From Diadema setosum (lineage: Eukaryota > Echinodermata > Echinoidea > Diadematoida > Diadematidae): a stretch of 64,000 bases of DNA. Below, in pieces: positions 5,628 through 47,004 of the stretch (its first letter is position 1; every line of letters begins with the position of its first letter). The DNA lies in assembly GCF_964275005.1 (NCBI RefSeq), contig NW_027307659.1, forward strand, positions 310,001-374,000, in the 5' to 3' direction. A program made the translations under genes and the position numbers. The notes under the pieces are model-generated. The model did not search any database, was not told the origin of the DNA, and saw only the letters and a list, made by a program, of their open reading frames with translations.

Positions 5628-6158
5628 GCCTGTCTCTTCATGACCAAGCTAGCGCAGCAGATGTTAGATTCAGTCCCCTGTCGTTCATGGATTTGGTGGC
5701 GCTACGTCGATGACATTTTCTTCATCTGGATCAGGGAGGAAGAAAGCCTTCATACTTTCATTGACCACATCAATTCTTTCCACAGAACGATCAAATTCAT
5801 TTCTGATTTCTCCCAAGAAGAGAACAATTTCCTTGATGTCACCGTTAGGAAGGAGTCTAACCATGTCACCACCACTCTCTACACTAAACCCACAGATACC
5901 CACAAATACCTTCACTCAGCCACCTGCCGTCCCCCGCCACTGCAAAACCAGTATAACCTACAGTCAAGCCATCAAACTTCGCCGTATCTGCTCTGAGGAT
6001 ACTGAGTTTTCTTTCCATGCCAGGAACCTGAAGAGACATCTCGCAGCCAGGGGCTACGGTCAACCAGGAGAGTTCAACAACCATCAACAAAGTTCCTTCT
6101 CTCCCCAGATCTGAAGTTCTCAAACCGAAAACCAACAAACAGAACATCACTGACAGAA
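5628..6158 (+). mobile_element. Penelope-like element, left half (reverse transcriptase)
   Basis: A plus-strand frame from about 5631 encodes WWRYVDDIFFIW, carrying the YVDD catalytic motif of reverse transcriptase, followed by NNFLDVTV, LYTKPTDTHKYLH and, in a neighbouring frame, YSQAIKLRRIC. That series is characteristic of Penelope-like elements. The copy is 5' truncated and frameshifted. It stops at TGACAGAA (6151-6158), where the 19.2-kb insertion begins; the rest of the element resumes at 25388. Confidence 0.85.
6151..6158. repeat. left 8-bp target-site duplication, TGACAGAA
   Basis: The octamer immediately before GGCCCCATGT is repeated exactly at 25388-25395, immediately after the inverted terminus. 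Both copies lie within Penelope coding sequence. Confidence 0.9.
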
Positions 6159-6213
6159 GGCCCCATGTCACAATGGAAATTGACAAAAGTTGCCAAAAAT
6201 TGACAAAATTGAC
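6159..6213 (+). repeat. left terminal inverted repeat of the 19-kb element
   Basis: Begins GGCCCCATGTCACAATGG and continues with TTGACAAAAGTTGCC. It matches the reverse complement of 25333-25387 with one difference (A versus G at the 15th base). Confidence 0.9.
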
Positions 6214-6224
6214 AAAGATTGCGC

Positions 6225-6775
6225 AACATTATGCAAAGTTGACATGCAAGTTTAGGCAACTTTGCATTTGCTTGCGCAACTTTGCGCCATTTCCGGCAAT
6301 TTTGCGCCCATTTCTGGCAATTTTCCGCAACTTCCGGCAATTTTGCGCAACCTTGCACCATTTCCGGCAATTTTGCGCAACCTTGCGCCATTTCCGGCAA
6401 TTTTGCGCAACCATGCGCCATTTCCGGCAATTTTGCGCCCATTTCTGGCAATTTTCCGCAACTTCCGGCAATTTTGTGCCCATTTCTGACAATTTTCCGC
6501 AACTTCCGGCAATTTTGCGCAACTTTGCGCCATGTCCAGCAATTTTACGCATCTTCGCGCCATTTTCCGGCATTTCTGTGCAATTTTGCGCCATTTCGGG
6601 CAATTTTGCACAACTTTGCACCATTTCAGGCAATTTTGTACAACTTTGCGCCATTTTAGGCAATTTTGCCCAACTTTGCGCCATTTCCAGCAATTTTGTG
6701 CAACTTAGCACATTTTCAGGAAACTTTGGAAAAGTTTGCACAATTTAAGGGAACTTTGCACAATATCAAACATTT
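6225..6775. repeat. left subterminal 30-bp minisatellite
   Basis: Tandem units of about 30 bp share the core CAATTTTGCGCAA plus GCCATTTCCGG, with variants TTTTGCGCCC and TTTTCCGCAAC. The array has few stops in any frame, so it produces several overlapping open frames up to 191 codons. They are repeats, not genes. Confidence 0.9.
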
Positions 6776-8660
6776 TTTAGCAATTTTTAGCACCTGCATA
6801 CAATACAATGCCACTTTGAGCAGGTTTTCAAAATATATTGACTTTTGGTGCCTGCTCTCTTTCATTCGTCTCAAAATCTTATCTTGTATATGATTTCAAA
6901 TATCAGGACTTTATAATAATACTATTGCATCTTTCCTGTGGTCATGCACTTCTGCCAAACAATCACATAGTTGAACATCATCTTTGAAACTCTGTATTCA
7001 TACATGTACTTCAGTCACAGAGTATGAGGACACCAAGAATGGTGCAATGTCAGATGTGCATGTATATAAAAGATTTCTTTATTAATTTTTTAATCCTCTA
7101 GCCCTCTATAATATTTTGTTCATATCTAAAGGGATCATGGAGAAAATATTAACATTCATGTGGTTCCAAAATCTCCATATATGCAATACGGTAAAGTGGG
7201 GGATGATGCTGTGGAACGGATCACCCACCTTTTAAATTCTTTGGGAGATAATTACATGGAACTCTAGCATTAACTAATTAAATATACTATCGCAACTCTA
7301 ACGATGACATGCAATGCCTGGAGTATTTTATGTGGTACTAGTGAACAAAATAAAAAGACCTGCTTGCAAAAATATTTTGTAATGGAAGAAACAATTTTAT
7401 TATACTTAAAAATGTGATACATGTGATATGACTGCTGGATTTTGTTTACTAGCCTTCCTCTAACTGTATTGAACAGTTCGTCGGCATTGTCTCTTAATGA
7501 CATAAACCAGTTTTGGCAAAATTGATCATGAAGTATAGTAGGGGGGGGGGTCAGGAAAAAGCATTTATCATAGTGAGATATAACTTCCATAATTACACAC
7601 ATTAAGAAGATTTTTGTGGCACTGAAAATGGAGAATTAAATATTGCTGACTAGAAGGAACTTTTGTCCTGTGGCCATTTTCACCATCAACACTTGTGTAA
7701 TAAAACACTCGCCATGAGTCCCTTAAACTATGTGCTTCCTTTAACTTAATCATGGTTAAGAGATTCCCTTAACCCTATGTCCACTGGGGGGGGGGGGGAG
7801 GGGTCAAATTGACCCCCCCCCCCCCCCCGTACAAAATTTTCTGCTGCCGCGCGACCGCCGCTGATCGCGTGATAATTTTTGGTGACTTTTTTTTTCTTTT
7901 GAAATAAATTTTGCGAAAATCCGACCACCGGTCGCGAGGTCACGTGACATTTCGTAAGTGCATGTCTGCCCAAAATTTGGCAAAAACCTGCTTTTCCCAT
8001 ACGTTTGTGTGCAAAGCAGCATATTTCATAAATTGCTCTAAAACACAGCTTTTTCAATCTTCTAGGCCATTTAAAAGATGTTATGTGACTTCACATCAAC
8101 TAATTTTAGATTAGAAAACAAAAAAAATCTTAAAAACAAGGAAATACATAAGAAATAAAAACAATAGAATACATAAGAAATTCGGAAAACAATACAATAC
8201 AAAGAAAATGTTTTGAAATTTGAAAATATTACCATATAATCTTGTTGACAATGCTTCTGGGATACTTTCTGCAAAGAATTAGAATCCAATTATAATTTTT
8301 GAAGGAAATATTGATATATTTGTGAATTTTATGAAATTTGATGCACCTCATTTGCATAAATTATAATAATTAAAAAAATTAAGAACTTTTGCGAAAAAAA
8401 ATAATGCAGCGACGTTCTTTACACGTGTCTTCAGGCTTACTTGAATACTTCCAAACTGAAGTTAAATTACATTCAATTAAAACAGAAAACTAAACATTTC
8501 AGGTAATAAAGGAAACATTAAACACAATGATAATGTATACATGTACGTAGACTCCATTTGCTTATGAAGAGAGACATTTGTTTAGCCCTTTTGATTGGGG
8601 TGCAATAGGTATACATATACAAATCATCAGAAATCTGCAGTTTTGACAGAAACAAAATGC
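6776..8660. other. interior of the 19-kb element, mostly unassigned
   Basis: AT-rich with no supported gene. It contains a G run beside a C run (about 7786-7828) followed by a CpG-bearing segment to about 8060 (GCCGCGCGACCGCCGC, then ACCGGTCGCGAGGTCACGTG). I recall similar sequence as a dispersed sea-urchin repeat but cannot confirm that. Confidence 0.4.
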
Positions 8661-8667
8661 TTCCTAC

Positions 8668-8870
8668 ATGTAGTCAGCTCTACTGTCCCAAACTGGATAC
8701 ATCCTTGAGATCTTTGAAGCATCAGCAACAGATATGGAATACATTATTGCATTTGATTGTAATGTTACTTTAGTTTGAAAGTATTCATTTATAATGGAGT
8801 CTTGTACACACATTACCAACACAATATCAGTATGTGGGGGTAACAGTAACTTTGTAAATTGCATTAAAAA
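8668..8870 (-). CDS. candidate terminal coding exon, unknown protein
   Basis: A minus-strand frame reads KLLLPPHTDIVLVMCVQDS and later KISRMYPVWDSRADYM before a stop. Composition is balanced, unlike the low-complexity frames nearby. A possible acceptor is ACAAAG at the upstream edge, in a phase that does not fit the neighbouring exon at 9377-9601. It could be the last exon of the same gene or a chance frame. No family recognised. Confidence 0.3.
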
Positions 8871-9376
8871 GAGTTTTTAAAGGTGAAGAAATAAAATATC
8901 ATCCTAGATATTTACATGTTATGTTAATACTATACTGACAATTAACATACATAAAAATCAAGTAAAAATATTATTCGTCTGGGGGGCAAAAGCAAGGTTA
9001 AAGGAAAGGTAAAAGGTCATAGCACTTTAACTTTCTCCAATAATATGTTTGATACCATTTTTGAATTCCTCTTTGAATTTCCTCTTGAATGGTACCAGTT
9101 TCACAAAAATTGGTCAACCAGTTCAGGCGCATTGTGCCGTTGAAATGGAAGGTCACAACCATTTTTGCCAAAACGAATCAAATAGGGCGGGCCATAGCTC
9201 GGAAACCGACGGACCGTTAATGCTAATTTTTTTTTGTTTCATGGGAAGGTAATGTTAAACTTTATGTGTACCAAATTTGAGCAAATTCTGAGACGGAAGG
9301 GTGCAAAATTGCACTTTCATTGGGTGAATTGGCATGGAATGACCCTAGAGCTCCATTATAGATAATTGTATCATAC

Positions 9377-9601
9377 CTTTCTTTGATTTACAGTCCATCA
9401 CTGGACACCAGAACATAACTGGATTTATTGTCAGTACTTCATAGGTCTTATCGCCATAAACTTTGCCAGTCATGCTCCTGAATCGGTCAAACTCATAAAG
9501 GAGAAACGAAGCATCTGTGCTGCAGAGGAGCTTGTTACAATTTTCTGACCATTTTCCATCAGACTTAAGTTCTCTTACTAGTTCCTGGTGGATTTTAGAA
9601 G
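9377..9601 (-). CDS. likely internal coding exon, unknown protein
   Basis: Minus strand: a strong acceptor (TTTATTTTCTTGTGACAG) and donor (AAAG|GTATGA) bound 225 nt that are open throughout and phase 1 at both ends. The 75-residue peptide starts SKIHQELVRELKSDGKWSEN, contains LLYEFDRFRSM and GKVYGDKTYEVL, and ends CPVMDCKSKK. Residue usage looks like real protein. It lies inside the 19-kb insertion, so it is either cargo, part of that element's own gene, or host DNA captured by it. I do not recognise the fold. Confidence 0.5.
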
Positions 9602-9927
9602 CTGTCACAAGAAAATAAAAATTAGATAAAGGAGTAAGTGAACAGGCTTTGAGCCAGTTTTGTCATTTCGATATCTTTAAAAAATAAACAAAACAAACAA
9701 ACAAACAAGAAGAAACTAAGGAATATAGGGATTCTTAAATATAAGAAATATACTTTTACACAATACACACACCACTGCTTGTGATACATGTACAGCAGGG
9801 ACATTGTTTATAAACAGTTTTCCAAATGTAAATCCAGGGGACAATAATTTGATTTGGGCTGGTGTAACTGGGAATTCTGACTCACTTTCATTTGCAAATG
9901 CAATAGACCCTATGCTAGATGCATAGA

Positions 9928-10199
9928 ATTTCTGCCCCTACAAGATGCCAGAAAACAATGGTTATATTGAAATGTTGCCTGGTCAACCGATTCCCGGTAT
10001 CAATGGGTTGTCAACTCTGATGCAAACCAGCGAAATGGTGTACATGACAAGCCATGCCCTCCACGATGGCGGCAATTTCAATTGTAATGCTGTTCCGCAT
10101 GGTGGAATGCATATAGGGTCTGTAGCGGATACTCCCATAAAAAAGTCCAATAAAAATTCTGTTAAAAATGAATGGGTCGGCTCATATGGCCTAATATAA
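9928..10199 (+). CDS. possible exon or short ORF, unknown protein
   Basis: A plus-strand frame starts with an ATG after CCCCTACAAG and encodes MPENNGYIEMLPGQP, then SEMVYMTSHALHDGGNFN and SVADTPIKKSNKNSV, ending in a stop at 10199. The plus reading looks more protein-like than the overlapping minus frame. It includes CCACGATGGCGGC, similar to a YY1 site, so a regulatory role is an alternative. Confidence 0.3.
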
Positions 10200-10377
10200 A
10201 TAACAATAGTGGTATATCTATGTGCAATGGCTACCTGATACTGATTTTTGTTGACATGCACAAGCACACTTTACATAGTAGTAAAAACACAAGAAATACT
10301 GTGGTTACCAGTAGTTTTCTCAAGCCATCACTTCATATGCAAAGGAAGACCCTATGAACAAATCTACTAGACCTTCA

Positions 10378-10581
10378 TTATCTCATTAAGGCATCAGCAT
10401 ATTTGTGACCATCCACCACAAATCGCTTGTAAAGTCGGCACCGACTTGAGACTAGTTTCTGTTTGTTTTCAGTAGAAGAATTAATTAGGTGTTCTGTACC
10501 ATAGTGCAATCCCTGGGCATTGTTGATTACGAAGAACGATAAAAGGCAATGGGTGGTAACTGGGTCGGTCATGTATAACAT
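10378..10581 (-). CDS. possible coding exon, unknown protein
   Basis: The minus frame encodes TDPVTTHCLLSFFVINNAQG, then KLVSSRCRLYKRFVVDGHKY and ADALMR before a stop. It is protein-like, and a CCGACCCAG acceptor-like site precedes it, but the pyrimidine tract is poor. It may belong with the exon at 9377-9601 on the same strand. Confidence 0.3.
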   Translation of the reverse strand: MLYMTDPVTTHCLLSFFVINNAQGLHYGTEHLINSSTENKQKLVSSRCRLYKRFVVDGHKYADALMR

Positions 10582-10599
10582 ACTTCATTCAATCAATGC

Positions 10600-12104
10600 A
10601 AACAAACGCCCATGGATCACATTATCGTAGAGAACACCTGTTCAATTCTTCCACTGGAAACAAACAGAACCCAGAAACCAGACTCACCTTGGTACCAACT
10701 TAACGAGTGATTCGTTGTGGACGGTCACATTTTTGCCATGATCCTCAATAAGGGGCTTTCCCCCTGGAACCCCTGCCAAGTAGCTTTGCCTCCTGGAATG
10801 CATAACATTGGACAGAAATTTCATTGCATCTTAGTCCCAACCCCCCCCCCCACCCCACCAATCAAAATCATCATGTCCTACATGTAAGCCTATGTACTTC
10901 TCATCATGACTAACACTTTTCACAGTTTATATGAAGCGTGTAATTCTAACAATGTTTTATAAAGGTGAAATATTTGTCTCACAAACATTATCACTAAACT
11001 TTATCAACCATTCTTAAACACTTTAGTCAGTTCTTGAAATTTCATTGGTTCCTGGCCGTGTTACATGAGATGATATACACATGGCTGCAGCATGTGCACG
11101 TCTACGCAATGCGCACACGCGCTGCTCGAACCAATTGGAGCCGCATAGTAATAATGGTGCTGCTGACTTGCATCTATATATCATATAACAAGCGATCGGA
11201 TTCCATTATTATTAGCATAGAACCGTTCGGCTACGCCTCACAGTTCTTGATATCGCCTGTGTTATATGAGACGACAGATGCACGTCAGCAACTAAAAACA
11301 ATACCTTCATTCTCTAATTGACAATAAGCAGCAACAGTTTTTCAGAAGTAACATTATTAGGCCTACTATTTGGATGTCATTACTCATTAGCAACACCTCT
11401 TTTGGCACCTACTATTTAGAGCAAACATGATGCAAACTTAACCCGTTTGAAATCTAAACTAATAAAATCAGAGACTCTCTCTTTGTCTGTTCACGAATAG
11501 GCTCCTAAACGATGTACTTTCATACTGAACTGACCCCGTACAATGATAGAACAGGTATCTAAGATGTGCAATGGGTAGGTTAGAGTAGGGGGTCAATCGT
11601 TTACTATGCAAATAACAAAAAAAAATGAATAATAAACAGCTTGGTTGCTATGCGGTCCTACACATGGATTACGCGTGCAACATCAGGGTCATGTTATACG
11701 CGCGATGACGGTGATGCTCGCGTCAGACGCGAATGCACGGTAACTGCGGCGACGCGTTCACTGTGCACAGTGGCCATGGCCACTGCGAAGCACAGGTACC
11801 CGCTAGTTATAATAAAATTGTACATCATGACTTGTTATGTGGAGCAACACTACGGATAATATTTCTTGTTAGGAACGCAAACTAGAGCAACTGTTCTCCA
11901 AGCAGAAGTGTCTGAGCATTGAACCAGATAGCCACGAGTGTATATGTTTATGCAGCTGTCATTTGTATGACGCGCACCTCTTGACCCCCGGGAAAAGTGC
12001 GTCATGGTCGCGTCAAGTACCACCAATTTGATGACACGTGGTACCGTCACGGGAGCAAAATGTCCGTCACATACTGACCCATTATGTGCGTCATAGTCGG
12101 TCAT
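10600..12104. other. interior of the 19-kb element, left of the DIRS copy
   Basis: No supported gene. 11640-12080 is richer in CpG (GATGCTCGCGTCAGACGCG and similar) than its surroundings. A C-rich run occurs near 10840. Confidence 0.4.
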
Positions 12105-12172
12105 TTTTATATCGTAATTTCGTGAGAGATTACGTCATATATGAGATACCGCTAGTGCGCGCGCCACTCAAT
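12105..12172 (+). repeat. left inverted terminal repeat of the DIRS element
   Basis: The segment containing ATCGTAATTTCGTGAGAG matches the reverse complement of about 16652-16687, and its continuation (GCTAGTGCGCGCGCCACTC) matches the reverse complement of about 16850-16880. This split pairing is the terminal repeat plus internal complementary region arrangement known for DIRS. Confidence 0.8.
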
Positions 12173-15100
12173 TCGTTAGTCGCCGCCATCTTGCTAACAC
12201 GCGAATTTCTGTGCTCGGAAAATTCGCCGGAATTGCACTTGAATATTCAAGTTTTCGTTCGAGTTGGATCGACGTAATAGCGAAAGTTACCTCAACGGGA
12301 GGTTTTGCCAGGTTTTTTCTGGTTTTAACTATCATTCTTCAGCTGAACAGCAACGGAACTTATGTCTTCGACCAACGTTTCAAACGTGGGCGGCGCAGCC
12401 GCACCACCGCTGCTGACAGGAGTCGCGTCCCCGGCAGCCACCGGCGGGGGTCGCGGAGACCAGCACGCACAAGAGTGCAAGCAGAAAACTGCGACAGCCA
12501 AAGGTAAAACGCCTACTAGAGCCGGCAAGGCAGGTACTAGTAATAGTACTACTACAACAAGCAGTGCTAACCCTAGCGGTAGTACCGGTGCAAACAAAAC
12601 AGTGAAACCACCTGCCAAACTGGCCTCTAAAGTTTCAACTTTGGAAGATAGACTCGGCAAGCTTGAAGGCCAATTAGCTGTGGTTGTTCAATTTGTGGAG
12701 GCACAGTCGGCAAAGCAGACACCAGCCCGTGAAGGCGGTGGCAATGGAAAGAGTATCAGGACTCGTTCTGAATACTCCCCTTCAGACTCGGCAGATACTG
12801 ACTGCTATTATGATGATGAATATGCGGCACCATTTCTGGGCCGAGATATGGATGAAAACTCTGTGATTATCCAACCAGGTCAAGGGGATAGTCGTGATGA
12901 CAAATTTGATATTGAAGAAGGCGAAGTTCCCCCTTCTGTAGTGGAGAAAGTGCCAAACATTGCAGCCAAATTTGCTGTGGCTGAGGAAGTTGGTCCCCCC
13001 ATTGACCCAGAAATTGCTAAGTCTACAGCCTACCTTCTGACCCACCAGCTCGAGCCCAAAGTGGTAGATGAAACGATCACTAAATACCCCATTCCCAGCA
13101 ACTGCGAGCTGGTGGATGTGCCGAAAGTCAACCAAAGAATCTGAAATGGGCTACCTGCCTTTTCAAAGACACGAGACCTCAAATTTCAGAGACTCCAAAA
13201 GAATCTCACGAGACGCATCAATGCCTACATACATACAGTGTCGGCACAGGATATCACTGAACAGCAACAAGATGCACTAGCACTTCTGTGCAGTGCGAAT
13301 TTCGAGCTAAATTCCTTGCGTAAGGAATTCATGAAACCAGACATTGGTTATCAATTCCAGCATCTCTGCAAGCCCTCTACCCCGGTCTCCAAATTCCTTT
13401 TTGGTGACGACCTGGGAAGGCAAATGAAAGACATAAGAGATGAACAAAAAGCAACTGACGGTGTCCTCAGGAGTGAGCATAGCAGACAATACAAAAAGCA
13501 GCGTTTCAGCCCATATGACTATGGCAGGAGTGCATATGGCAAGGGCAGGAGCAAGATTACATCAGGAAGCTCAAATTTGCCCCAACAGTACCGCGACGCG
13601 GGCTGGACTACTTCTCGTGCAAGTACAAGTGATGTCACTAGGCCTACAGGTGCAAAAGGACCGTGGACTGGAGCTACCAGCCATGCTTTTTTAGGCCAGC
13701 GCCCCAAGGGGAGGGGGAAGCCGTCGGCTCCCCACACCTTCACACATCCCAGCCAGCACCAACCGCACTGCGGCAGCAAGCAGGGCTCAGGGATGAAGAG
13801 AGCACGATAACCTCCAGTTCAACTGACGAGGTAAACATGACATCTGATTCTAGTGATTATGCAAAGCTATGTCATAATAATGTAGAACCTATGGTAGGAG
13901 GTCGACTGAAGCAATTCCTCCCAAAGTGGCGCAAAATTACTTCAGACCCACATGTGCTAAATGCTGTAAGTGGTTACAGGCTTGAATTCAGTAAAGAGAT
14001 GGGTGCACCATCTAGAACTAAACCCCCTTACCTTTTTCGGTGTGATAAAGCCGAAGAGGCTGATATTGATCTTGAAAATTCTAAACTCCATGACAAGGGA
14101 GTAATCGAACCGTGCCAGATGGAAACTGGAGAATTCGTGTCTAATATTTTTACACGGCCTAAAAAAGACGGGGGTACACGCGTTATCCTAGACCTGTCTG
14201 ATCTCAACAAATATCTCCAGTACCAGCATTTTAAGATGGAAAATATCCATACTGCTATTGAACTCATTTCAGAAAATAGCTTCTTAGCTTCAGTCGACCT
14301 TCGGGACGCGTACTATACAGTACCTGTGCACCCAACACACAGGAAGTTCTTAAAGTTCTCCTGGAAAAATCAACTTTGGCAATTCAAAGTACTGCCTAAT
14401 GGCCTGAGCACGGCGCCAAGGTTATTCACTAAACTACTGAAACCTGTATTCACATTACTGAGAGAGCAAGGGCATGTAGTAATTGGATATCTTGACGATG
14501 TACTCATTATTGGAGAAAGTGAGAATCAAACATTGCAAACGGTTTTTGAAACCACTAGCATCCTTGCACAACTTGGGTTCTTGCACACCCAGAAAAATCA
14601 GTACTATGCCCCACTCAAGAAATACAATTTCTTGGTTTCATTCTCAATACTCAGGCCATGACAATTCGACTGCCTGATAACAAATCAGAGGAAATACAGT
14701 CCTTGTGCACTGAACTTATGCAAATAGCAAACCCCAGTATCAGGCAGGTGGCTAGAATTATCGGGAAAATGGTAGCATCATTTCCCGCAGTCCAGTATGG
14801 ACAGCTCTATTACAGGGCTTTAGAAAGGGACAAAATCAAAGCACTCAAAATGAATAAGGGGCATTTTGACAGAAAAATGAGCCTATCTTTGGAAGCAAAA
14901 CAAGAGCTGCAATGGTGGACAGACAATGTGCAGTCTACTTTCTCACCCTTACGACACCCTAAACCTATGCTCGAATTGTGCACGGATGCCAGTGGCAAAG
15001 GCTGGGGGGCATCTGATCATACCACCCATACACGGGGTAGATGGAATGAAGACGAGCTGCAAAAAGCCAGGGAGAATAAGATTAATTATCTGGAGACCCT

Positions 15101-15535
15101 GGCTGCTGGCATGGGACTCAAGTCCTTCTGTTCTAATTCACAAAACATTCATGTTTTGTTACGGCTAGATAACAGTACTGCTGTTGCGTACATTAACAAC
15201 ATGGGAGGCATTAAATCCCTTGACTGTGATCGGGCAGCCCGAGAGATTTGGCAGTGGTGCGAAACTCGTAAAATTTGGGTCACTGCAGCACACTTGCCAC
15301 GAAAGCTGAATGTGGAGGCAGACCGCATGTCTAGAATTTTCAATGACCGCACAGAATGGATGCTTGACCGCACAGTTTTCCAAGAAATAACTTCACGTTT
15401 TGGGACACCAGAAATAGACCTATTTGCCTCCAGACTTAACAAGCAGGTAGAGAACTATGTCACATGGTTGCCCGACCCACATGCCAAGGCTGTTGATGCC
15501 TTTACTCTCGATTGGGGAAAATTCTCAAGCTCGCT

Positions 15536-16000
15536 CGCTTTTGAAATTGCTCGCTCGCATTGAATCGTTGTGCCATTCTCCTAATGTTGCTGCCAGTAAT
15601 TGCCAGCAGTTGCGCCCGATGCGCCGCCCCATTAATTTCCAAAGTGAAAGATATAGCTACAAACCCCAGTTTTGGAACTGTAGAATATCAAAATTTTCAA
15701 GCTCGCTCGCTTCGCTCGCTCACATTTTATTGTTATGCTATTCACCTTATGTTGCTGACAGTATATAGTTTGTCGATCGTTTCACACCGTCATTCCATAA
15801 TCCATATAAGGAAAACTTACAATGTTCCTCAATGACTGCGTTGTTGAATGTATCACATTCCGTAATGTATTGTAGTCCCATTATTGCTCACGCACACACG
15901 CACAAGCATACAGATCGTCAAAATTACTTTATGGTTCCCCCCATGTTTCGACCCACCGTACGCCACTTAATATATGATAGATGTGTGTGCGTGTGTGTGT

Positions 16001-16035
<35 letters not shown>

Positions 16036-16110
16036 TGTGTATATTGTATAACATATGCATGGTCTAATCTTGAGCCCCCTCCAATGTTTGCCCCCCCAAT
16101 CCAAAACTGC
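15536..16110. other. segment inserted within the DIRS fossil
   Basis: It holds two similar blocks starting CAAGCTCGCTCGCTT (about 15536 and 15698, roughly 160 bp apart), each followed by sequence containing ATGTTGCTG, and then a long (GT)n tract. None of it resembles DIRS coding sequence. It may be a small foreign insertion or local expansion. Confidence 0.5.
15980..16033. repeat. (GT)n microsatellite
   Basis: Nearly pure GT repeat with a few interruptions, seen directly. It generates Cys-Val-rich frames that are not genes. Confidence 0.95.
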
Positions 16111-16651
16111 TTCCGGCGCGCCTGCTTGCAGGAATACATCAGCAGGACCCGCAGAATCAGAGCTAGTGAACGGTACCTTTTTGTTAGCTACAAGAAACCG
16201 TATCACAGGGTATCATCTCAAACAATCGCTCGCTGGATTAAGGAGGTTTTGGAGGCTGCTGGTATTGATACAGAGATCTACAAGGCGCACTCTACTCGGG
16301 CAGCGTCTACCTCCGCAGCCAATAAGGGAAATTTCCCAGTATCTAAAATACTTGCGCAAGCCGGTTGGGCCAACGAAAGAACCTTTCGCAAGTACTACGA
16401 CAAGCCCTGTCCTGCTGAGAAAACCTTTGTAGAAACAATTATCAAAAAATAGACTGTGAAGCCCTAAGATTTGGGCAGACATGTCTTGAACTGCCTGAAC
16501 TTGTGAACTCTTGGAGACACAATATCTCTGCAGCATTCAACCTGAATGAGACTTGCAATGGAACCTCTTGTATTACTTGTAAGGTATGCTTCCTACCCCT
16601 TTTCGGGGGGGGGGGGTTGCCTCGAGAATGTAACCACTGGCTTTGAAATCT

Positions 16652-16966
16652 CATGACGTAATCTCTCACGAAATTACGATATAAAATGGAAGATTAAACG
16701 AGAACTTACCGTTTGAAGTTTAATATTAATTTTATGAGTAATTGGAGGGTGAGATTACGTCCCACCTCACCCTCCCCCAAATTTCAAACGGTAACTTAAT
16801 CTCTCGTTATCTTCCTACATCAGTGGTCACATTCTTGCTTCTAATATTGAGTGGCGCGCGCACTAGCGGGATCTCATATATGACGTAATCTCACCCTCCA
16901 ATTACTCATAAAATTATGATATTAAACTTCAAACGGTAAGTTCTCGTTTAATCTTCAATTTAACCA
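16652..16966. repeat. right end of the DIRS element with a 75-bp hairpin
   Basis: About 16689-16760 and 16884-16960 are inverted copies of each other (shared words include CAAACGGTAAGTTCTCG and TCACCCTCCAATTACTC). They flank the internal complementary region that pairs with the left terminus. Such structures are expected where DIRS elements store the sequence needed to rebuild their ends. Confidence 0.7.
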
Positions 16967-18003
16967 GAGTGTGTCAAAAGGTTCGTTAATAGGACCGTCA
17001 TGTAATTTTGCGAGGCTTCTTGCATGGTATCCCTCCGTAACAGAATGAAACAAACTCGCGATCGCGAGCCGGGCGAATTCACCGGCTCCTGAAAACGCGA
17101 AAATGACACAATTTTCATTCAGTTTTATTATAACATACTGATACTCACTTCATTCTCGTATGTCTTCTTTTTCTATCTGATGTCAGACTAAAGGTCTTTT
17201 CAGAAGGTTTGAGCACAAATTTGCTCAAAAAACCACACTACCAAACACGATTTGTGATTAAAATCATCACATACAGCCCGCGGCATCGCGAAGCTCGCTA
17301 TCCTTCCATCGCATTCACTGCTGTAGTGTAGCATCGACCGACCGTCGACCGTGAAATCTGCTGCAAAACCATGTGCGTGATGTGGACCGTGTTGTATGTA
17401 TACAGTACAGGCGTACAGTACAGGCGTACATACACGTGTACAGAAGACGAGGCATGGCAGAGCAGAGGCCAGGCCGCGATTATTTTTTCCGTAACCCTAA
17501 CCTGCCGATCGACACACAAACGATTATGGAACTACTGAGAGTCTTATTCATATTTATGAACAAAATATTTACGTCGATGTAGGGCAATTTGTTAATCAGT
17601 TGCAATACTGACAGTCTATTATTAACTTGAAATAGTGAATTCTATTCAAACACTAGCCATATAAACCATGTACCTAACTTAGGGTTTAATAAGGTTCGTG
17701 TTTAAATATAGGCAGGGGCTTCAATCAAGCTGTTTTCGAATCGGGGAAGGGGAGGCGGGAGGTTACGGAAAAAAATTACTGTGGCCATGCCAGGCCGTAG
17801 TTTCGCGAAACTAGATATAAATTACAGTTCGAGGACATGCCATAGCAACGTGTAGGCCTATATATCAAAACACGCGTTTCTATGGGATGTCCATGAACTA
17901 GGGAACGGTTTTGAGAAATTCGAAGTCATTCGAAGTTGAAGTGGTCTTTTCCTATGCATTTTTAGGTGATCCGAGTATCCTCTCGAATCACCTTCTGTAT
18001 CTG
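16967..18003. other. CpG-containing unassigned stretch
   Basis: Patches such as CGATCGCGAGCCGGGCG (about 17058) and CGACCGACCGTCGACCG (about 17335) have high CpG. Plus-strand frames here have no convincing splice sites. It could hold a promoter, but nothing decides it. Confidence 0.35.
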
Positions 18004-18066
18004 TACGGATTCTTTCTTTCTTTCTTTCTTCTTCTTCTTCTTCTTCTTCTTTCTTTCTTTCTTTAT
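18004..18066. repeat. (TTC)n/(TTTC)n microsatellite
   Basis: A pyrimidine tract of TTTC then TTC then TTTC units, seen directly. It accounts for Lys/Glu-rich minus-strand frames. Confidence 0.9.
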
Positions 18067-18437
18067 TTCTCCCCAAAAGTTGTGCAGAGGATAGCTCAGA
18101 AAGTGCTATGCCTATCAAGTTCATACTTATACCATGTATGTATCGTGTCCCAAAGACGACAGATCTAGTCATTTTTTGTTGTTGTTCATATCTCAAAAAT
18201 TCGATTTCTTATTTTTTTTTCAACTGGTATTTAGGAGTCTTGTAATATATTTAAAATGTTGATAGAAATTTCTGAATATATTCAGAAAGCACGCCTAGGC
18301 GCCTAGGCCTACTGTTTGGATAAACGGTAAACATAGTCTACGTTCGATACGAAGAAATCATTACGTCTTTCACTTGAGGAAAAACATACAAAACAAACAA
18401 ACAAAAAACACGTACGAACGAATGTTGATAGCCAAAA

Positions 18438-18466
18438 CCAGGGAGGTGGAAGAAAGACCTCCCTGG
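18438..18466. repeat. short perfect hairpin CCAGGGAGGT/ACCTCCCTGG
   Basis: Ten-base perfect arms with a 9-base loop. Function unknown; it could be the centre of a small MITE. Confidence 0.5.
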
Positions 18467-18469
18467 CCA

Positions 18470-19850
18470 AAACTTTTATAAGTAATAAGCAGTTATGATG
18501 AGCGTGAACTGAAATTAATTGTCACGATTTTGCTGTCTAACCAGGTGATGACTGCATCTCATTGAACCTACTCGTAGTGAATTTCTCTGGGCATACGAGA
18601 CCTTTTTATTTCTGTGATTGCATTTTTAATTGACTGATTAATCGATCTTTTTTTTTTTTTTAGTGTTCAGGGAACATAAGATATTCGATCAAGTACACTA
18701 TATTCGACTGTTTGATGTTTCCTATTATAAAATGGGTTCAAGAATGTAGCCAATAGGAAGCGCTGAAATGAGACACACCTCCTTCCTTTACTTCAGTACA
18801 ACTGCACTGCCTGTAATCCTATGGTACTAGTAGATTACCGATCGTCTGTGCGCGCGGCGGCTCCTTTGATGAATTGCATGCATACGCGTACGCGCTGTCA
18901 ATCCTGTAAACAACTTCTAGTTCGGGCTGCCGGCCGGCCGGCCTGTCTTCCCTTGTGCATAACATATGTGGCGTACGTACGTATACTGTACTATACGTAC
19001 ACTTTGTACAGTACAGTAGACCAAGCGTTATGGGACCGGACGCGTACATGGAGTCACTTTGAAGAGCAAATCCAACGATTTAGCAGGTTAATTCTCACGC
19101 CGTTTTCAGAGTATGTTGTCTAGTAGGCCTATATGAGGAGTCTGTATCAAGTCTTTAAGGTAAAGGGTGCATATTCTATGTAAAATAAGTAAGTTTTCAT
19201 GCGGGTGTCCGGAAACCCAACCCCCCATTATACTTATATAGTAAGGGTACTAGGTCTCGCGCAGGGACCTAATGATCGCGCATAGCGTAACTGCGTATAG
19301 CAAGCGATATTACGCGTAGGACTAAGCGCAAAATTTGCCGATACGCCCATGGAATAAACATACCTGACTTACCGCTCAACATGAGAAGGAAGCAGGTAAG
19401 AAATTTTGATTTCCAACAAATTTTCCACTAAATTTCCAATTCTTTACCTTGTACAAACCTACCTTCCCTTAAAATCTGTTCTAAGGATGTTGTAGCCTAG
19501 ACGTGTCGTCTCGCTTGTCTCGTTCGGAGTCGATAGAATTCGTAATTTGTTCGATCGATCGTTTACCACGTGACGTCATCATACACAAGAACAATGTATG
19601 CTGCCAGCTACGCTGAAATACTGTTAATAAATGTTGTTTTAAGTCAAATTTTAACACAACGATTATAATATTACAAAGGAATAAATATTTCAGTCTATCG
19701 AAGTTGAAGTGTGATTTCAATTTGAATTTGCTTGTGATTTCTTGCGCTAACTTGTGATATATTTGTGACAGGGGAGGGCCATAATGATACTGAAGAAAAC
19801 AAATTAGATGAGAGTGTATGGGTGACGAAAATGAGAGGGTGACGAATGGG
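18470..19850. other. unassigned interior of the 19-kb element
   Basis: No supported gene. CpG-rich and self-complementary patches occur (GGCCGGCCGGCC near 18931; GCGTACGTACGTATAC near 18973). These are compositional features only. Confidence 0.35.
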
Positions 19851-19854
19851 TAAG

Positions 19855-19890
19855 CACACACACAAACACACACACACACACACACACACA
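19855..19890. repeat. (CA)n microsatellite
   Basis: CA repeat seen directly. Confidence 0.95.
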
Positions 19891-19982
19891 AAGTATATGT
19901 TCATATTTTACTTTTTTCCATTTTATATTACGTGTATATTATTGGTTAAAGTGATTAGAAATATTGTAAGAAAACTTTATAA

Positions 19983-20162
19983 ATGAAAATCATTAACGAT
20001 TATGAAAATATCAATGATAAAAATAATGATAATAAGAATGATAAAATGATGATGGTGGTGGAAGTGATAATAATAATAATGAAAATGATAATGATTATGA
20101 TGATTATGATGATCGATGATGGTGGTGGTGATAATAGTAATAATGATGATAATAATAATAAC

Positions 20163-20193
<31 letters not shown>

Positions 20194-20225
20194 CATAAAA
20201 TAATAATAATAACAATAATATACAC
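19983..20225. repeat. (GAT/AAT)n trinucleotide tract
   Basis: Imperfect GAT, GGT and AAT triplets grade into a pure AAT run (about 20160-20190). All frames are open because of the triplet period, giving Ile- or Asn-rich false ORFs on both strands. Confidence 0.9.
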
Positions 20226-20722
20226 AAGTTAGGTAAAACTGCTGTTGCTTATAACAGGGACAAATTTAATATCAAGTGAAAAAATATTCTACGAAAGCCG
20301 GAGCACGTTACAGCCGCAGAGGGGCAGACACTTTCACGCATGAAACTACAGAGGGCAGCTGCGCGATCTTTACATACCCCGAGAAATTGAACGCATAAAA
20401 AAAAGTCCGACATACAAACGGCGACAGCGCACTACTCCGTCATCGTATCATCAGGAGATTCTGGGAGGTGATTTTTCTGCTTTTTCGTGATATTCATTGA
20501 AAAATTCAGGTACGATTATAGAATAACTTCTATTATAAGAGCATTTCAAATTTACGTGCGCGATATCTAGACCCCTCAACCATACTGTATGTGCGGGACT
20601 TCCGCGAGTGCGACGTGCGTAAAAGTTTGGGACGAACATCTTCGGACGTCTTGACCCACAAAGGTACGTGAAAAACGCTGAAAAATGATGTTAGTTTTCG
20701 AATTTTCGACCCATTTTATAAA
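20226..20722. other. unassigned stretch
   Basis: No gene or repeat family recognised. Moderately CpG-containing. Confidence 0.35.
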
Positions 20723-20896
20723 ACAAATGTTGCACAGGATTATTTCGTGGCGTTAGTGTAGGCGTAGCTCACTCTCGGGTATTTACAATGTAGTGCAACA
20801 TGCACTCGGCTTCGCCTCGTGCATGTTTCACAATTGTAAATACCCTCGAGTGCACTACGCCTACACTAACGCACTCTATCCTGTGCATCATTTGTA
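20723..20896. repeat. foldback (hairpin) element
   Basis: Two arms of about 75 bp are near-perfect inverted copies: CAAATGTTGCACAGGA at the left outer end answers TCCTGTGCATCATTTG at the right, with GGCGTTAGTGTAGGCGTAG and its complement inside. The loop is short (TCGGCTTCGCCTC). Likely a small non-autonomous element; no target duplication identified. Confidence 0.75.
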
Positions 20897-21375
20897 TACT
20901 ATGCGCCAAAAGAAAGGCTATAGAATCACGATATCTTTGCAATGATTCCTTTAATTCAACTAATGAGCTGGTTCTTCGATCGATATTTCCAGGATATTTA
21001 CACGCTGTTTATTCCAGCGCGCGCATTCTTTCGTCTGGCACGCACCTGGGTGTGGCACCTGCTTTTGTGGAAATTTCCACAAGGGGAGAGAGGTGGGGTG
21101 TCAAGTTTCTTCGAGCCGAAGGACTGCATGTAACACAATCTCTTCGCTCTGATTTATTGTCATTCGTGCTTTCCCCTTATTCTTTGCTGATGTTGGTAAA
21201 ATCAGACAACTTGTCTAAAATTTGTCACAAATTTTCTTTAGGTATGGAAGAAGAGAAAGGGGAAAGGAAAAGAGAAAAAAAAAAGAGGAAAGAAGAAGAA
21301 GGCCAAGGGGAAGGAAGAACCTGGGGTGTTAAGTTGGATTGACATTTTCGGGGGAATTGGCGACTGCCAATGTTA
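20897..21375. other. unassigned stretch with an AAG-rich tract
   Basis: A plus-strand frame runs through here but ends in a Lys/Glu-rich low-complexity tract (21250-21310) and lacks splice support. I do not call it a gene. Confidence 0.35.
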
Positions 21376-22161
21376 AGGCCCGGTCCCACTGGCCGACGGA
21401 CACAAAGCGTATGCAGAAAGGACACAGCGGACGAGCAAAATTTCGGGGATGGCTTCATCCGCTTTCATCCGCTCCAGAAATTGACAAAATTGGCGAAAAT
21501 TGGCGGTAACAGAACGGAAATAGAACGGACGTGGGTAGTATGTAGCGGGGATGTTAAATGGATGTTCATCGGAAGCCTAGCGGATGAAAGCGGATGGAAG
21601 GGGATGACAGCTCCGAAGGGGTTACCGGAGATAATTGCGAAACGGACGCATAGCAGAAAAAGCGGATGCAGAGTGGATGCAGAGCGGATGCAGAGCGGAT
21701 GCAGAGGGGATGCTTTCGAAATGCTTTATATACGAGATGCACACGCTTACATCCTTTCTATTAACGTGCTATTAACGATGTAAAGACGTTCCACGTACCA
21801 TATCTTTCCTCCCTCTTTCCGTTTTTAGCTGCAGCGGATGTGAGTTGCGAGGATGCCCAGAGGATGCAGAGAGGATGCAGCGGACGTTTAAGGGATGCCG
21901 CACGGACATATAACGTTTGTTGCTCGTATGTCGCGAATTTACATCGTACACAGCGGAAAGTTCATCCGTTCTAAAAGTTTTAAGCAGCTTAAAACTTTTT
22001 GCGCGGATGAAATCACAGTGGACGGATGCTCGATGGATAGAGCGGATGAAACACGTATGCGATGGGTACACAGCGGATTCGTAGCGTTTTCCAACGGATG
22101 GCAAGATTTTTTGTACGCTTTACATCCTCTTTGCATCCGTAAGTGCAGTGGGACCGGGCCT
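21376..22161. mobile_element. non-autonomous PIF/Harbinger-like element
   Basis: Perfect 16-bp TIRs AGGCCCGGTCCCACTG are flanked by the 3-bp duplication TTA (21373-21375 and 22162-22164), the signature of PIF/Harbinger. Inside, GCGGATGCAGAG-type words recur many times and a perfect hairpin (AAAAGTTTTAAG, loop CAG) sits near 21973-22000. No transposase frame is present. It is nested in the 19-kb element. Confidence 0.85.
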
Positions 22162-22227
22162 TTAGACAGTCATTGACCTCTAGTGAAGTCTCTAACAACA
22201 TGTTAGAGGTCATTTTTAGTGTTTGGG

Positions 22228-22285
22228 TTAACTGGGGGGGGGGGGGACATTTCTGATGGGGGAAATGCCTCATAACCCCCCCCCC

Positions 22286-22318
<33 letters not shown>
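22228..22318. repeat. G run, C run and (CT)n tract
   Basis: A poly-G stretch, then ATTTCTGATGGGGG, then a poly-C stretch and a CT microsatellite. The G and C runs could pair as a hairpin. Confidence 0.8.
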
Positions 22319-22783
22319 AACTTATGTGAATTTTAACACTTCAATCTATCTTTTAGGCCCGTGAAGATTAAACTAGCAGAATTAGATTATTATCCATAAT
22401 CATATAGATCTAGGCCTTACAAAGAAATACAGTGTCACTCACGTCGTTACAAGTCGCGACGACGTGGAATCGGGGAAATCTCCACCGACTCCCGTCCTCA
22501 GATTTAGAAGACGACCCGAGGGTAAGAATTTGAGACGTCACCTCGTACTAAGCTTGACGTTCGGTCTGGCGTTAGAAAGCTGCCTAATGCAATGAAAAAC
22601 CCCCACCCCATTCCTAAATAATCCAAACTGCCTTTAGAGCCACGTTCTATTACAACCACAACACAAAAAAAAATGTAAATAAAAACAAACACAAAACAAT
22701 AAATAAATATATATTTTTTTTAAATTGTTCCAAATTCGAATAGACTAATAGTAATATAAATCTTAGGGCTTACCTTTATATCA
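22319..22783. other. unassigned stretch downstream of the MSSKAS frame
   Basis: A minus-strand donor-like GATATAAAG|GTAAGC occurs at about 22775-22785, hinting that a minus-strand exon ends there. Otherwise AT-rich with no recognised repeat. Confidence 0.35.
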
Positions 22784-23041
22784 GATGCCATGTACATGGC
22801 TTCCTGTGTTATCTTGTTCCGGTAACATGTGGGTTATGAAATTATAATCATCATGATTTAAAAAAAAAAAAAAAAATAATTGATCAAATGGAATTATAAA
22901 CACTTTAAAATTAAAGAAATCGCGTAAATCAGAAATAATTTGTTTTATGTGTTTATCATTAATAATGATCAAGTCACTTGGTCTAATATCTAAATGAGAC
23001 TCCATGAGTTTCTTCAGCAGTGGGCTCGCTTTTGACGACAT
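22784..23041 (-). CDS. candidate 5' coding exon, MSSKASPLL protein
   Basis: From an ATG at 23041 on the minus strand the frame reads MSSKASPLLKKLMESHLDI, then RPSDLIIINDKHIKQIISDL and RDFFN, which looks like genuine helical protein. It then runs through a poly-A-encoded Phe stretch, so the true exon probably ends before it. Within the same interval, ITQEAMYMASDIK followed by a donor (GTAAGC) could be the next exon after a short intron. Promoter-like motifs lie just upstream. Family not recognised. It is inside the 19-kb insertion. Confidence 0.4.
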
Positions 23042-23105
23042 ATTTTTGTATCTTGACTCGACTCGACTATACAGTATTCGACTTGAGAAAAAGAATGAAG
23101 ATGGT

Positions 23106-23246
23106 GTATCGATATCTCTTGTGAATATCGATACAGACCTCATTTTAACTTTCAACCAATGAAACAGCCGCAAATTTGCAAAGAATTGTTTTTCAAGTAG
23201 TTCAAGTTTTGACACGTCCGGCGCACCATGAATCGAAATGACGTCA
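23106..23246 (-). promoter_or_regulatory. promoter-like cluster: CRE, CCAAT, two TATCGATA
   Basis: Upstream of the minus-strand ATG at 23041 lie a consensus CRE, TGACGTCA (23239-23246), a CCAAT sequence (23156-23160) and two TATCGATA words inside perfect inverted arms GTATCGATAT/ATATCGATAC (23106-23115, 23125-23134). TATCGATA is the DRE core known from insect promoters. The spacing and grouping suggest a TATA-less promoter, by inference. Confidence 0.4.
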
Positions 23247-23259
23247 TCTCTTAGTTTGT

Positions 23260-24445
23260 TTGGGTTTTATCCTTCGATCTCTAACCACTGGATATAGCAT
23301 AGTACCAAAGACGCTTAATTGAAAAGACTGGAAACTGCGCGATTTTCATGTACAAAACAAATGGACAGCGCGCGGTCATCAAGCGTGCTAGTTAATTCAT
23401 ACGCGGGTATACTCAGTCGCACTTGGTGGGTAGTTTCTCAGTTATAGTGGTACGCAATATCCAATTAATGTACAATACAAATGGACGCGTGCGCAATCAC
23501 CCATATATTGAAAACCAAACAGGGTGTTGACCCATAATTATACGCAGAGCGGGAGATGTTTTTAGTACCGTTTTAGAATGTTTTCCCCTGCTCGTTTGTC
23601 ATAATTCAATTGCATATCTTGGTATATAAGAAATCAAAACAAGTACAATTACATAATCTTACCCCCCGGTTCAATAGAGGGGTTTCGTAATGTCAAATTT
23701 TATGCACACACCTTTGTTAAATTTCGATAAGCAAACATTTGTTCACCTGATAACAAACAATAACATTGTAATGGATGGAATGATCGTCACCCGCAGTGAA
23801 TGTTGCTATAGGTTTGACAAGCTACAATGTTTGTCCGAATTGGCAATACTAATGTATGCAGTTCGCCTTCTGACTATTGTGATGTGGTTGTATTTGACAG
23901 GTGAATACATAGTTTGTCTACATTACCAAATCATCTATTCTGCTCCACCCCCCCCCCTTCTACTCTATGTCTCTGAGCTTCACGATAAGATGTTACATTG
24001 ATAAACATTAGCGAGTTGCAACCCAACTGATAACAAACAATACCCTTACCAGATTGCGTTATTTGACAAAGCGCCTGTTCGAACACGTCTATAAGGAACG
24101 GTTCGTTCAAATCTTCAAAAATATCGAGCCTAATTACGTATTCCAGTGGAAATTCTCAAAAATGTCATGGCTCATTTTCTTTTATATTAACAGAGAAGTA
24201 TCATTATGTATTCTTCATGATTCATGCGCTTTGTAAAAAATATTGAGCCATGACATTTTCCGTAAATATTTTTTGAAAAACGGTACTGCAAACCAAACAT
24301 TTGTTGGCCATAGGTATAACACGCAACGCATCGCAAAGCATGACGGGACTAAGGTTTATGTATTATTCATCAGGCCCCAAAACAGCCATAAACCGTTCTT
24401 TTGGGGAAGAACGGTATTTCGATCTTGTGCCTGACTGCCGATTGC
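23260..24445. other. unassigned stretch
   Basis: A 103-codon plus frame (23690-24001) is hydrophobic in its middle but has no splice sites or recognisable domain. A C run lies near 23948. Nothing else identified. Confidence 0.35.
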
Positions 24446-24575
24446 GGTCCAAATGTGCTTGCTCCATGCATACTGCACGCTTTCCTATCTTGTTAACTCT
24501 TTGATAGTACCAAAGATATTAGAGTTAACAAGATAGGAAAGCGCACAGAATGCACGGAGCAAGCACATTTGGACC
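24446..24575. repeat. foldback element with 57-bp arms
   Basis: GGTCCAAATGTGCTTGCTCC at the left end and its near-exact complement at the right end enclose a second matched stretch, GCTTTCCTATCTTGTTAACT. The loop is about 15 bp. Probably a small hairpin MITE. Confidence 0.75.
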
Positions 24576-24624
24576 TCATTTGGGGAAGGGAGAAGAATTA
24601 AAGTGGAATTTTGTGAGAAGTTAA

Positions 24625-24708
24625 CCCGTTGAAGACGAGTCCCGGGTATAATCGGGCTGGGGTCATAAGAATTGCGTGTAATAGCAAAATCAGCTCGTCT
24701 TCAACGGG
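24625..24708. mobile_element. 84-bp piggyBac-like MITE
   Basis: TIRs CCCGTTGAAGACGAG and its exact complement are flanked on both sides by TTAA (24621-24624 and 24709-24712). TTAA duplication with termini starting CCC fits piggyBac-type elements. Too short to code. Confidence 0.8.
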
Positions 24709-24720
24709 TTAATGGAACTT

Positions 24721-25330
24721 AGTACAATTTTATGTGACTTTGTGAACCTTTGCGCAATTTTGCATAACTTTGTGAAAAGTTAATGTAACTTTGTACAACT
24801 TTGCGCAATTTTTTGCAACTTTGTGAGAAGGTCATGCAACTTTGTACAACTTTGCACATTTTTGTGCAACTTCGTGAGAAGTTTATGCAATTTAGTGCAA
24901 CTTTGTACAATTTTGCGCAATTTAGTGCAACTTTGTACAATTTTGCGCAATTTAGTGCAACTTTGTACAATTTTGCGCAATTTTTAGTGCAACTTTGTAC
25001 AATTTTGCGCAATTTAGTGCAACTTTGTACAATTTTGCGCAATTTAGTGCAACTTTGTACAATTTTGCGCAATTTAGTGCAACTGTGAGAAAAGTTTGTG
25101 CAACTTTGTACAATTTTGCGCAATTTAGTGCAACTTTGAGAAAAGTTTGTGCAACTTCGTACAATTTTGCGCAATTTAGTGCAACTTTGAGAAAAGTTTG
25201 TGCAACTTTGTACAATTTTGCGCAATTTTGTGCAACTTTGTGAAAAGTTTATGCAACTTTGTACAACTTTGCGCAATTTTGAGCAACTTTGTGAAAAGTT
25301 TATGCAATTTTGTACAATTTTGTGCAACTT
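24721..25330. repeat. right subterminal 30-bp minisatellite
   Basis: Units of 30 bp (core CAATTTTGCGCAA plus TTTAGTGCAACTTTG) are repeated in tandem, most regularly from 24898 to 25090. The core matches the left array on the same strand, so the two arrays are direct relative to each other although the outermost 55 bp are inverted. Open frames up to 202 codons across it are repeat artefacts. Confidence 0.9.
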
Positions 25331-25332
25331 TG

Positions 25333-25387
25333 GTCAATTTTGTCAATTTTTGGCAACTTTTGTCAATTTCCACTGTGACATGGGGCC
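25333..25387 (-). repeat. right terminal inverted repeat of the 19-kb element
   Basis: The reverse complement begins GGCCCCATGTCACAGTGG and matches 6159-6213 with one mismatch. It is immediately followed by TGACAGAA. Confidence 0.9.
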
Positions 25388-25395
25388 TGACAGAA
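25388..25395. repeat. right 8-bp target-site duplication, TGACAGAA
   Basis: Exact copy of 6151-6158. Penelope coding sequence resumes directly (RIALVTTFHPNL). Confidence 0.9.
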
Positions 25396-32689: not shown

Positions 32690-32836
32690 TTTGTCTCCAT
32701 CCGTAGTAACACATGCAACTGCAGTGTGCAGTTTGTGGGCTGCTGTGAAAAATCACAGGCAGCCCAAGCGGGATTCGAACCCACGACCTCCGGATTACTA
32801 GACCAGCGCCATAACCACTAGACCACCGGGATGCCC
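32690..32836 (-). mobile_element. tRNA-derived SINE-like copy (tRNA-Thr-like head)
   Basis: The minus strand folds as a tRNA at about 32761-32830: A box TGGTCTAGTGG, B box GGTTCGAATCC, a 5-bp T stem (GTGGG/CCCGC) and an anticodon-loop CTAGTAA that would give AGT (Thr). The acceptor and anticodon stems each contain mismatches or wobble pairs, and the sequence continues into a non-tRNA body. I favour a SINE head or tRNA pseudogene over a working tRNA gene. Confidence 0.55.
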
Positions 32837-46870: not shown

Positions 46871-47004
46871 AATTATAGTTTGCTTGTATGCAGATGTGTC
46901 TGCAGAGATTATGATAGTTTGTTTAAGTAGTTTGTTTTTTCTTTGGTGTCACCATGTCATTTTCCCTTGTTGATTCCCTCTGTTCATCGTTGTCATCATG
47001 AAAG

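Follow-up and report, generated by a model that had tools for sequence, protein, structure and literature searches.

The window analysed here is a stretch of 64,000 nucleotides from Diadema setosum (C33:310001-374000; genome assembly of 912.7 Mb in 102 contigs), in which a Penelope-like element is interrupted by a very large insertion with terminal inverted repeats (TIRs). The inserted element occupies positions 6158..25388 on the plus strand (19,231 bp, 5'-AGGCCCC...GGGGCCT-3'), as delimited by its termini, by the comparison of copies and by a 31-mer search for its ends, and it belongs to a very large DNA transposon that is present in the genome in about 26 copies, all of them young. The left TIR (6158..6241, plus strand) and the right TIR (25305..25388, minus strand) are 84-nt arms that are 89% complementary. 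Their outermost 55 positions, described as near-identical in an earlier reading made from the letters alone (the sequence-only reading), indeed agree at 54. A 40-base end pattern, allowing up to 3 mismatches, has two matches in the window and none in 100 shuffles. The tips are followed inwards by subterminal arrays of approximately 10-bp units, namely a left array of the TTGCGCAA/CAACTTTG type (6242..6790) and a right array (24720..25304), both assigned to the plus strand and with approximate borders; according to counts of unit orientation, the two arrays of the window copy share one direction past the 84-bp tips.

The octamer TGACAGAA is found on both sides of the unit (6151-6158 and 25388-25395). 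When the flanks are fused over a single octamer, the Penelope-like reading frame runs on (...NITDR-IALVTTF...), as had been noticed before. The same reading regarded the octamer as a perfect 8-bp target site duplication; the octamer is present as described, but the duplication is 6 bp. An A precedes the terminal GG in all 26 left ends of the family and a T follows the terminal CC in all 24 right ends, and because both bases are constant in all ends examined, they are part of the element. The duplication in the window is therefore GACAGA (left copy 6152..6157, right copy 25389..25394). Identical 6-bp duplications flank 23 of 23 paired copies in the genome, with 0 matches in 506 off-pair comparisons, and the 23 pairs carry 23 different duplications. 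Eight matching flank bases occur in two pairs only, the window and copy C10a, and the two extra bases at the window match by chance. The ends themselves differ consistently at position 16 (A in 26 of 26 left ends, G in 24 of 24 right ends), and copy C10c is one C short at both tips.

Copies of the element in the genome

The genome searches in this analysis score limited numbers of candidates; for the inventory, the left and right 82-bp ends served as queries, with 40 of 50 candidates scored in each search. The 31-mer search (up to 3 mismatches) yields 50 ends (26 left, 24 right), 48 of them without mismatch, and the searches with the 82-bp ends list the same 26 and 24. No more diverged ends appeared within three mismatches; older ends past this tolerance would escape. 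Likewise, the matches listed for three interior segments described below (exon C, block A and block H) include no older full copies, only short and weak ones. The exact 15-mer AGGCCCCATGTCACA has 49 matches in the genome, where about 1.7 would be expected by chance; 48 are at family ends, and the sole one outside the family is located at G000:C18:27076006.

Pairing of ends that face each other gives 23 units: 22 span 11.9-45.1 kb, and the remaining one spans 151 kb and contains a further copy. Measured from GG to CC (for C10c, from its matched part), the lengths are 11,908, 12,407, 12,567, 14,886, 15,839, 16,260, 17,124, 17,170, 18,864, 18,902, 19,229 (the window), 19,373, 19,385, 20,072, 20,785, 21,897, 23,219, 23,305, 24,697, 27,373, 36,679, 45,110 and 151,332 bp; the 36.7-kb copy is the one that sits inside the 151-kb copy. 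Three left ends are unpaired: C59, where the contig ends 5.5 kb away, C20, where block H is present and a right end was not found, and C3. The sole unpaired right end is C15:4477763. The search for further inverted pairs that the sequence-only reading had proposed thus succeeded, with duplications of 6 bp instead of 8 bp, and its central claim of one large transposition event is strongly supported by the agreement of all paired units. The contrary view, namely that the two termini are separate solo elements brought together by an assembly or recombination artefact, has nothing to recommend it beyond the unusual size; it is refuted by the matching duplications of all pairs together with the restored Penelope frame, and we attach practically no weight to it.

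Mean pairwise divergence between copies amounts to 0.49% in block A (10 copies), 0.46% in block B (9 copies), 0.59% in block G (5 copies) and 0.32% in block H (11 copies), with single pairs ranging from 0.06 to 1.04% across these four common blocks. The blocks contain 121 variable columns, of which 108 are singletons, and the relations between copies form a star. Low divergence and the star pattern indicate a recent burst. The comparison is based on 11 of the 23 paired copies read whole (the window and ten others); C12 (39.0 of 45.1 kb) and C1 (14.0 of 20.1 kb) were read for the most part, together with their ends, 4 kb and the ends were read of each of C6b, C22 and C15d, and the remaining copies were read at their ends.

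Interior blocks, deletions and nested insertions

The first block inside the left end is block A (6957..8433), whose left limit is an alignment border to two loci on C15 and not a border read base by base. Block H (23500..24560), defined by genome search, is located beside the right end; of its 25 full-length matches, 24 adjoin right ends and one (C20) is without a found end, and there are four short matches in addition. Between both blocks the interior carries exon-like segments. Exon C (9377..9601, minus strand, 74 codons) is a predicted exon with good splice-site scores in a home-made splice model and no Pfam match. Its 18 strong genome matches consist of 17 in units and one at C15:4519272, with 13 of the 18 identical to the query, and two weak partial matches are inside two units. 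Exon F, predicted within L061:3244-3579 on the minus strand with good splice-site scores, has seven strong matches (five units and two C15 places) and three more with E >1. Exon T, predicted on the minus strand with good scores in the home-made model, is acidic and carries a stop. Home-made exon chaining gave no trustworthy gene model and was not used. A likeness of exon F to the TFIIS N domain was seen by eye; Pfam, PDB and a genome family search gave it no support, and the candidate was rejected.

Six-frame Pfam scans covered window positions 6800-12120 and 16960-24720 as well as those blocks of copy C15b that are absent from the window; in addition, the long open reading frames of a DIRS-like insert and the minus frames of two pieces of copy C1 were scanned. 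No match above the cut-off was obtained in the window interior outside the DIRS-like insert, in the C15b blocks or in the C1 pieces. The search for KDZ, hAT, MULE, P and Merlin transposase profiles, suggested by the sequence-only reading, was run on these parts of the interior and returned none, so that the earlier failure to identify a transposase is repeated here for the scanned parts. A 203-residue frame of Ser-Arg repeats is present at L065:4568-5176, on the gene-like strand.

Several copies have a 5.5-kb deletion in common, whose breakpoint in the window is at 8433..8434. The junction is the same in the window, C18 and C16c, with no duplication or overlap on reading the printed sequences; it is found in C2 by alignment, and C7, C8, C12, C15a, C6a, C6big and C59 fit it, with exon C 3.1-4.1 kb from the left end. 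The missing block is a deletion, since exon T, which lies inside it, is still present at both C15 loci, and the common junction in several copies implies that the deleted form has spread. Copies C15b and C10c are collinear (98% over 18.8 kb); the other copies read whole lack differing internal blocks and carry differing inserts.

The window copy carries several such inserts. A nested DIRS-like retroelement with inverted and split repeats (12107..16957, plus strand) has frames for a reverse transcriptase (RVT_1, 1.1e-16) and a tyrosine recombinase (Phage_integrase, 5.4e-8). Whole-copy comparison identifies a stretch of 2.2 kb (18729..20896) and a nested element of 786 bp (21376..22161; AGGCCCGG...CCGGGCCT) between TTA repeats, the latter presumably Harbinger-like. 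All three occur in the window alone among the 11 whole copies. Block E (16958..18728), identified by genome search, is part of an abundant genomic repeat and is carried by the window lineage of copies; the repeat has 3806 first-look candidates, and its copies listed elsewhere are mostly 80-95% alike. An insert of about 80 bp with inverted ends between TTAA copies (24628-24712; AACCCGTTGAAGACGAG...CTCGTCTTCAACGGGTT) has the look of a small TTAA element.

The 151-kb unit was considered as a full-length element and dropped: two stretches interrupt its block E, one of about 99.5 kb, at which the flanking parts of the block overlap by 6 bases, and one of about 32 kb, so that the unit is probably a nest of insertions. 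The stretch of about 99.5 kb (G000:C6:34600541-34700021) houses the 36.7-kb copy and may itself be a further very large insertion that is flanked by a 6-bp duplication. The 45-kb copy contains frames that by eye resemble a long terminal repeat (LTR) retroelement (L058:4985-5722 and L058:6120-8621), and one integrase-like L058 frame ends in what looks like a PHD-finger motif. To the right of the unit, the window contains a tRNA gene or tRNA-like sequence (32760-32832, Rfam 43.1 bits) and an open frame with an immunoglobulin-like look (46974-47363, by eye).

The C15 loci, the origin of the putative cargo and the mover

Two loci on C15 match the interior of the elements. The sequence read comprises 3.5 kb of the main locus plus 0.2 kb at its right end, and 4.5 kb of the second locus. 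At the main locus the markers follow in falling coordinates: block A (4563025-4563439), exon F (4556518), exon C (4519272), block Y (4490852), block H (4478581) and the right end (4477763). The right end is exact, and H, Y, C, F and A stand in element order and orientation over a span of 85.7 kb; no left end was found at this locus. Among the matches listed, Y, exon C and exon F occur together only here, exons C and F being 37 kb apart. The second locus, 0.63 Mb away, has block A at 3930586 and exon F at 3923591, with no listed match for exon C, Y or H. Block A has matches in all 26 units and at C15:4563025-4563439 and C15:3930586-3931000, both of which lack a found left end and align from the same query base (window 6957); its remaining matches are two weak ones (76%), again on C15. 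Block A adjoins every one of the 26 left ends, hence no copy free of cargo was encountered. The two C15 loci differ by 0.19% over 1.6 kb, as against 0.57-0.83% between them and five elements, from which they are set apart by 5 fixed base differences and a 27-bp indel. Paired termini are thus found elsewhere in the genome, and five interior markers are at the same time collinear with a longer C15 place without a found left end; the sequence-only reading had counted an absence of other pairs, together with such an interior, against transposition. The collinearity bears on the origin of the cargo and leaves transposition standing.

To judge by their sequences, the copies resemble shortened and in part again extended forms of a single longer sequence that is best preserved at C15. 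On balance we lean towards a giant Pack-type transposon that captured a host region of C15 and subsequently shrank, and, with the same guarded preference, towards classing the family as young, non-autonomous, giant TIR DNA transposons of Pack type that duplicate 6 bp on insertion. What belongs to the transposon proper would then be a left end of about 0.8 kb and a right end of similar kind, whereas the rest looks like cargo; its source would be a host region on C15 (approximately 4.478-4.563 Mb) that spans about 86 kb and contains a spliced gene, and nested transposons would have been added on top later. The right end would have remained at C15, and a left end would have become attached on the opposite side through a postulated, not directly seen, rearrangement. 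The composite may then have moved to other sites with a transposase supplied in trans; differing large deletions, at or between moves, would have reduced the copies to 12-25 kb, and nested insertions would have lengthened some of them again. The ends, the 6-bp duplications, the inventory and young age of the copies, the common deletion and the order of five markers on C15 are observed; the role of C15 as donor, the host origin of the gene and the action of the enzyme in trans are inferred, the last from the spread of a deleted form and the failure to find a transposase in the scanned parts. C15 is favoured as host donor because as much as 37 kb separates its exon-like parts, a spacing unlike that of a transposase gene, because the left border recurs at the second locus, again with no end, and because all left ends are joined to the same block.

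Several observations weigh against a capture at C15. The exact right end there means that the locus could be a left-truncated element; the left boundary common to both loci rests on alignment borders; and the second locus is without exon C, Y and H, which would be expected if it were a second host copy in full. Neither Pfam nor PDB assigned the exon-like segments to a host gene, no Med26 or TFIIS-N match is listed at the C15 exons, and block E has no near-identical copy at C15 among the 40 of 3806 candidates scored, which we take to mean that it was inserted into the elements later.

The C15 locus may instead be a full-length or long ancestral element of about 86 kb or more that has lost its left end, in which case the exons would be its own, perhaps those of an unrecognised transposase, and the 12-25-kb copies its deletion derivatives. 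We regard this as possible but distinctly less probable. It accounts well for the exact right end, for block H and four further markers in order, for strong exon C and F matches confined to units and C15 loci, and for the similar age of the C15 locus and the elements, and it keeps its standing because the exact right end is found at C15; against it speak the exon-like parts 37 kb apart, the two loci with a common left alignment border and no end, and the lack of a transposase-like domain in the scanned parts. A bolder extension of the capture at C15, about which we are rather doubtful, is that the family represents a group of DNA transposons with AGGCCCC...GGGGCCT ends, 6-bp duplications, same-direction 10-bp arrays and a transposase of no described superfamily, which would have taken up a host gene region of 86 kb, would no longer be present in this genome without cargo and would have multiplied as copies of 12-45 kb in a very short time.

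The identity of the mover is a separate matter. Zisupton/KDZ elements make 8-bp duplications, and the suggestion of the sequence-only reading that they are the closest class is not supported by the 6-bp duplication of all 23 pairs. KDZ/Zisupton, hAT, Merlin and P were all rejected on duplication length, Merlin's being that given in passages of the literature. All 26 left and 24 right ends examined have AG..CT termini, which speaks against IS3EU/GingerRoot with their TA..TA termini. The family might be a passenger of Polinton/Maverick elements, whose integrase, perhaps with the polymerase, would recognise AG...CT ends and make the 6-bp duplication; this is compatible with either origin of the cargo. 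Both features agree with Polintons as far as the literature covered describes them, the genome has long open Polinton-type polymerase frames, and no pair shorter than 11.9 kb was found. On the other hand, none of the 54 listed matches to DNA polymerase B (PolB) lies inside a unit (50 candidates scored), the single exact 15-base end outside the family is far from any listed PolB match, and the end motifs AGT2 or AG3 reported for vertebrate Mavericks, in the sources covered, are absent. No Polinton polymerase or integrase appeared in the parts scanned with Pfam, which a passenger would lack too. We consider such a passenger unlikely. Still less probable is a foldback element of TU or FB type, with tandem-repeat arms around unrelated host DNA. 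Sea-urchin TU elements have long tandem-repeat arms and 8-bp duplications, and the arrays of 10-bp units extend over about 600 bp at both ends of our element; beyond the 84-bp tips, however, these run in the same direction and are not inverted, so that the arms do not fold back, and the duplication is 6 bp. The exact end pattern has no match in viral contigs, and a phage search found nothing. We note that the PolB matches in G000 include stop-free frames as long as 1541 residues, which seem to come from young Polintons.

In the literature covered, gene capture by TIR transposons in animals is known mostly from small fragments. Should C15 be the donor, the family would represent capture and spread of a region of tens of kilobases in an animal-type genome; donor, deletion derivatives and nested copies would all be present and nearly identical, the order of capture, deletion and spread would be directly readable, and a very large cargo would be no bar to transposition. 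With its transposase still missing, the family offers a concrete target for searches.

Comparison with known systems

The movement of large host DNA as one unit by two distant ends is shared with the Ac/Ds macrotransposons of maize. These have hAT ends and 8-bp duplications, in contrast to the 6 bp and the multicopy family described here. Giant elements are reviewed in PMC6431247 and PMC10175614, and Tetris (PMC4079207) provides the foldback comparison; to the partial extent to which the literature was covered, no family like this one appears in the titles or abstracts searched. According to the portions of PMC10175614 available, Teratorn is likewise a giant TIR transposon of an animal, but one with piggyBac ends, a TTAA target and herpesvirus genes, whereas the 6-bp duplications of our family are not TTAA and no herpesvirus genes were recognised in its scanned parts. 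IS3EU and GingerRoot share the 6-bp duplication and differ in their termini (TA..TA, for GingerRoot also TG..CA; PMC10045372, in part) from the AG..CT observed here. Polintons/Mavericks resemble the family in the 6-bp duplication, the AG...CT termini and the size range (10-40 kb; PMC10175614, same portions), but the parts scanned yielded no gene for a polymerase, integrase, ATPase or capsid, and the interior is exon-like and intron-like.

Of the kinds described in the literature covered, the animal Pack-TIR elements (for example Ssk-FB4 of Drosophila) come closest. As far as the available part of PMC8277862 goes, the captures in this group are one of 291 bp in a frog and that of the small gene Ssk, while the units described here measure 12-45 kb in about 26 copies, with no cargo-free copy found and a candidate parent that itself carries one transposon end. 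Common to both are sequence from elsewhere between transposon ends, several copies with their own duplications and the presence of a candidate parent.

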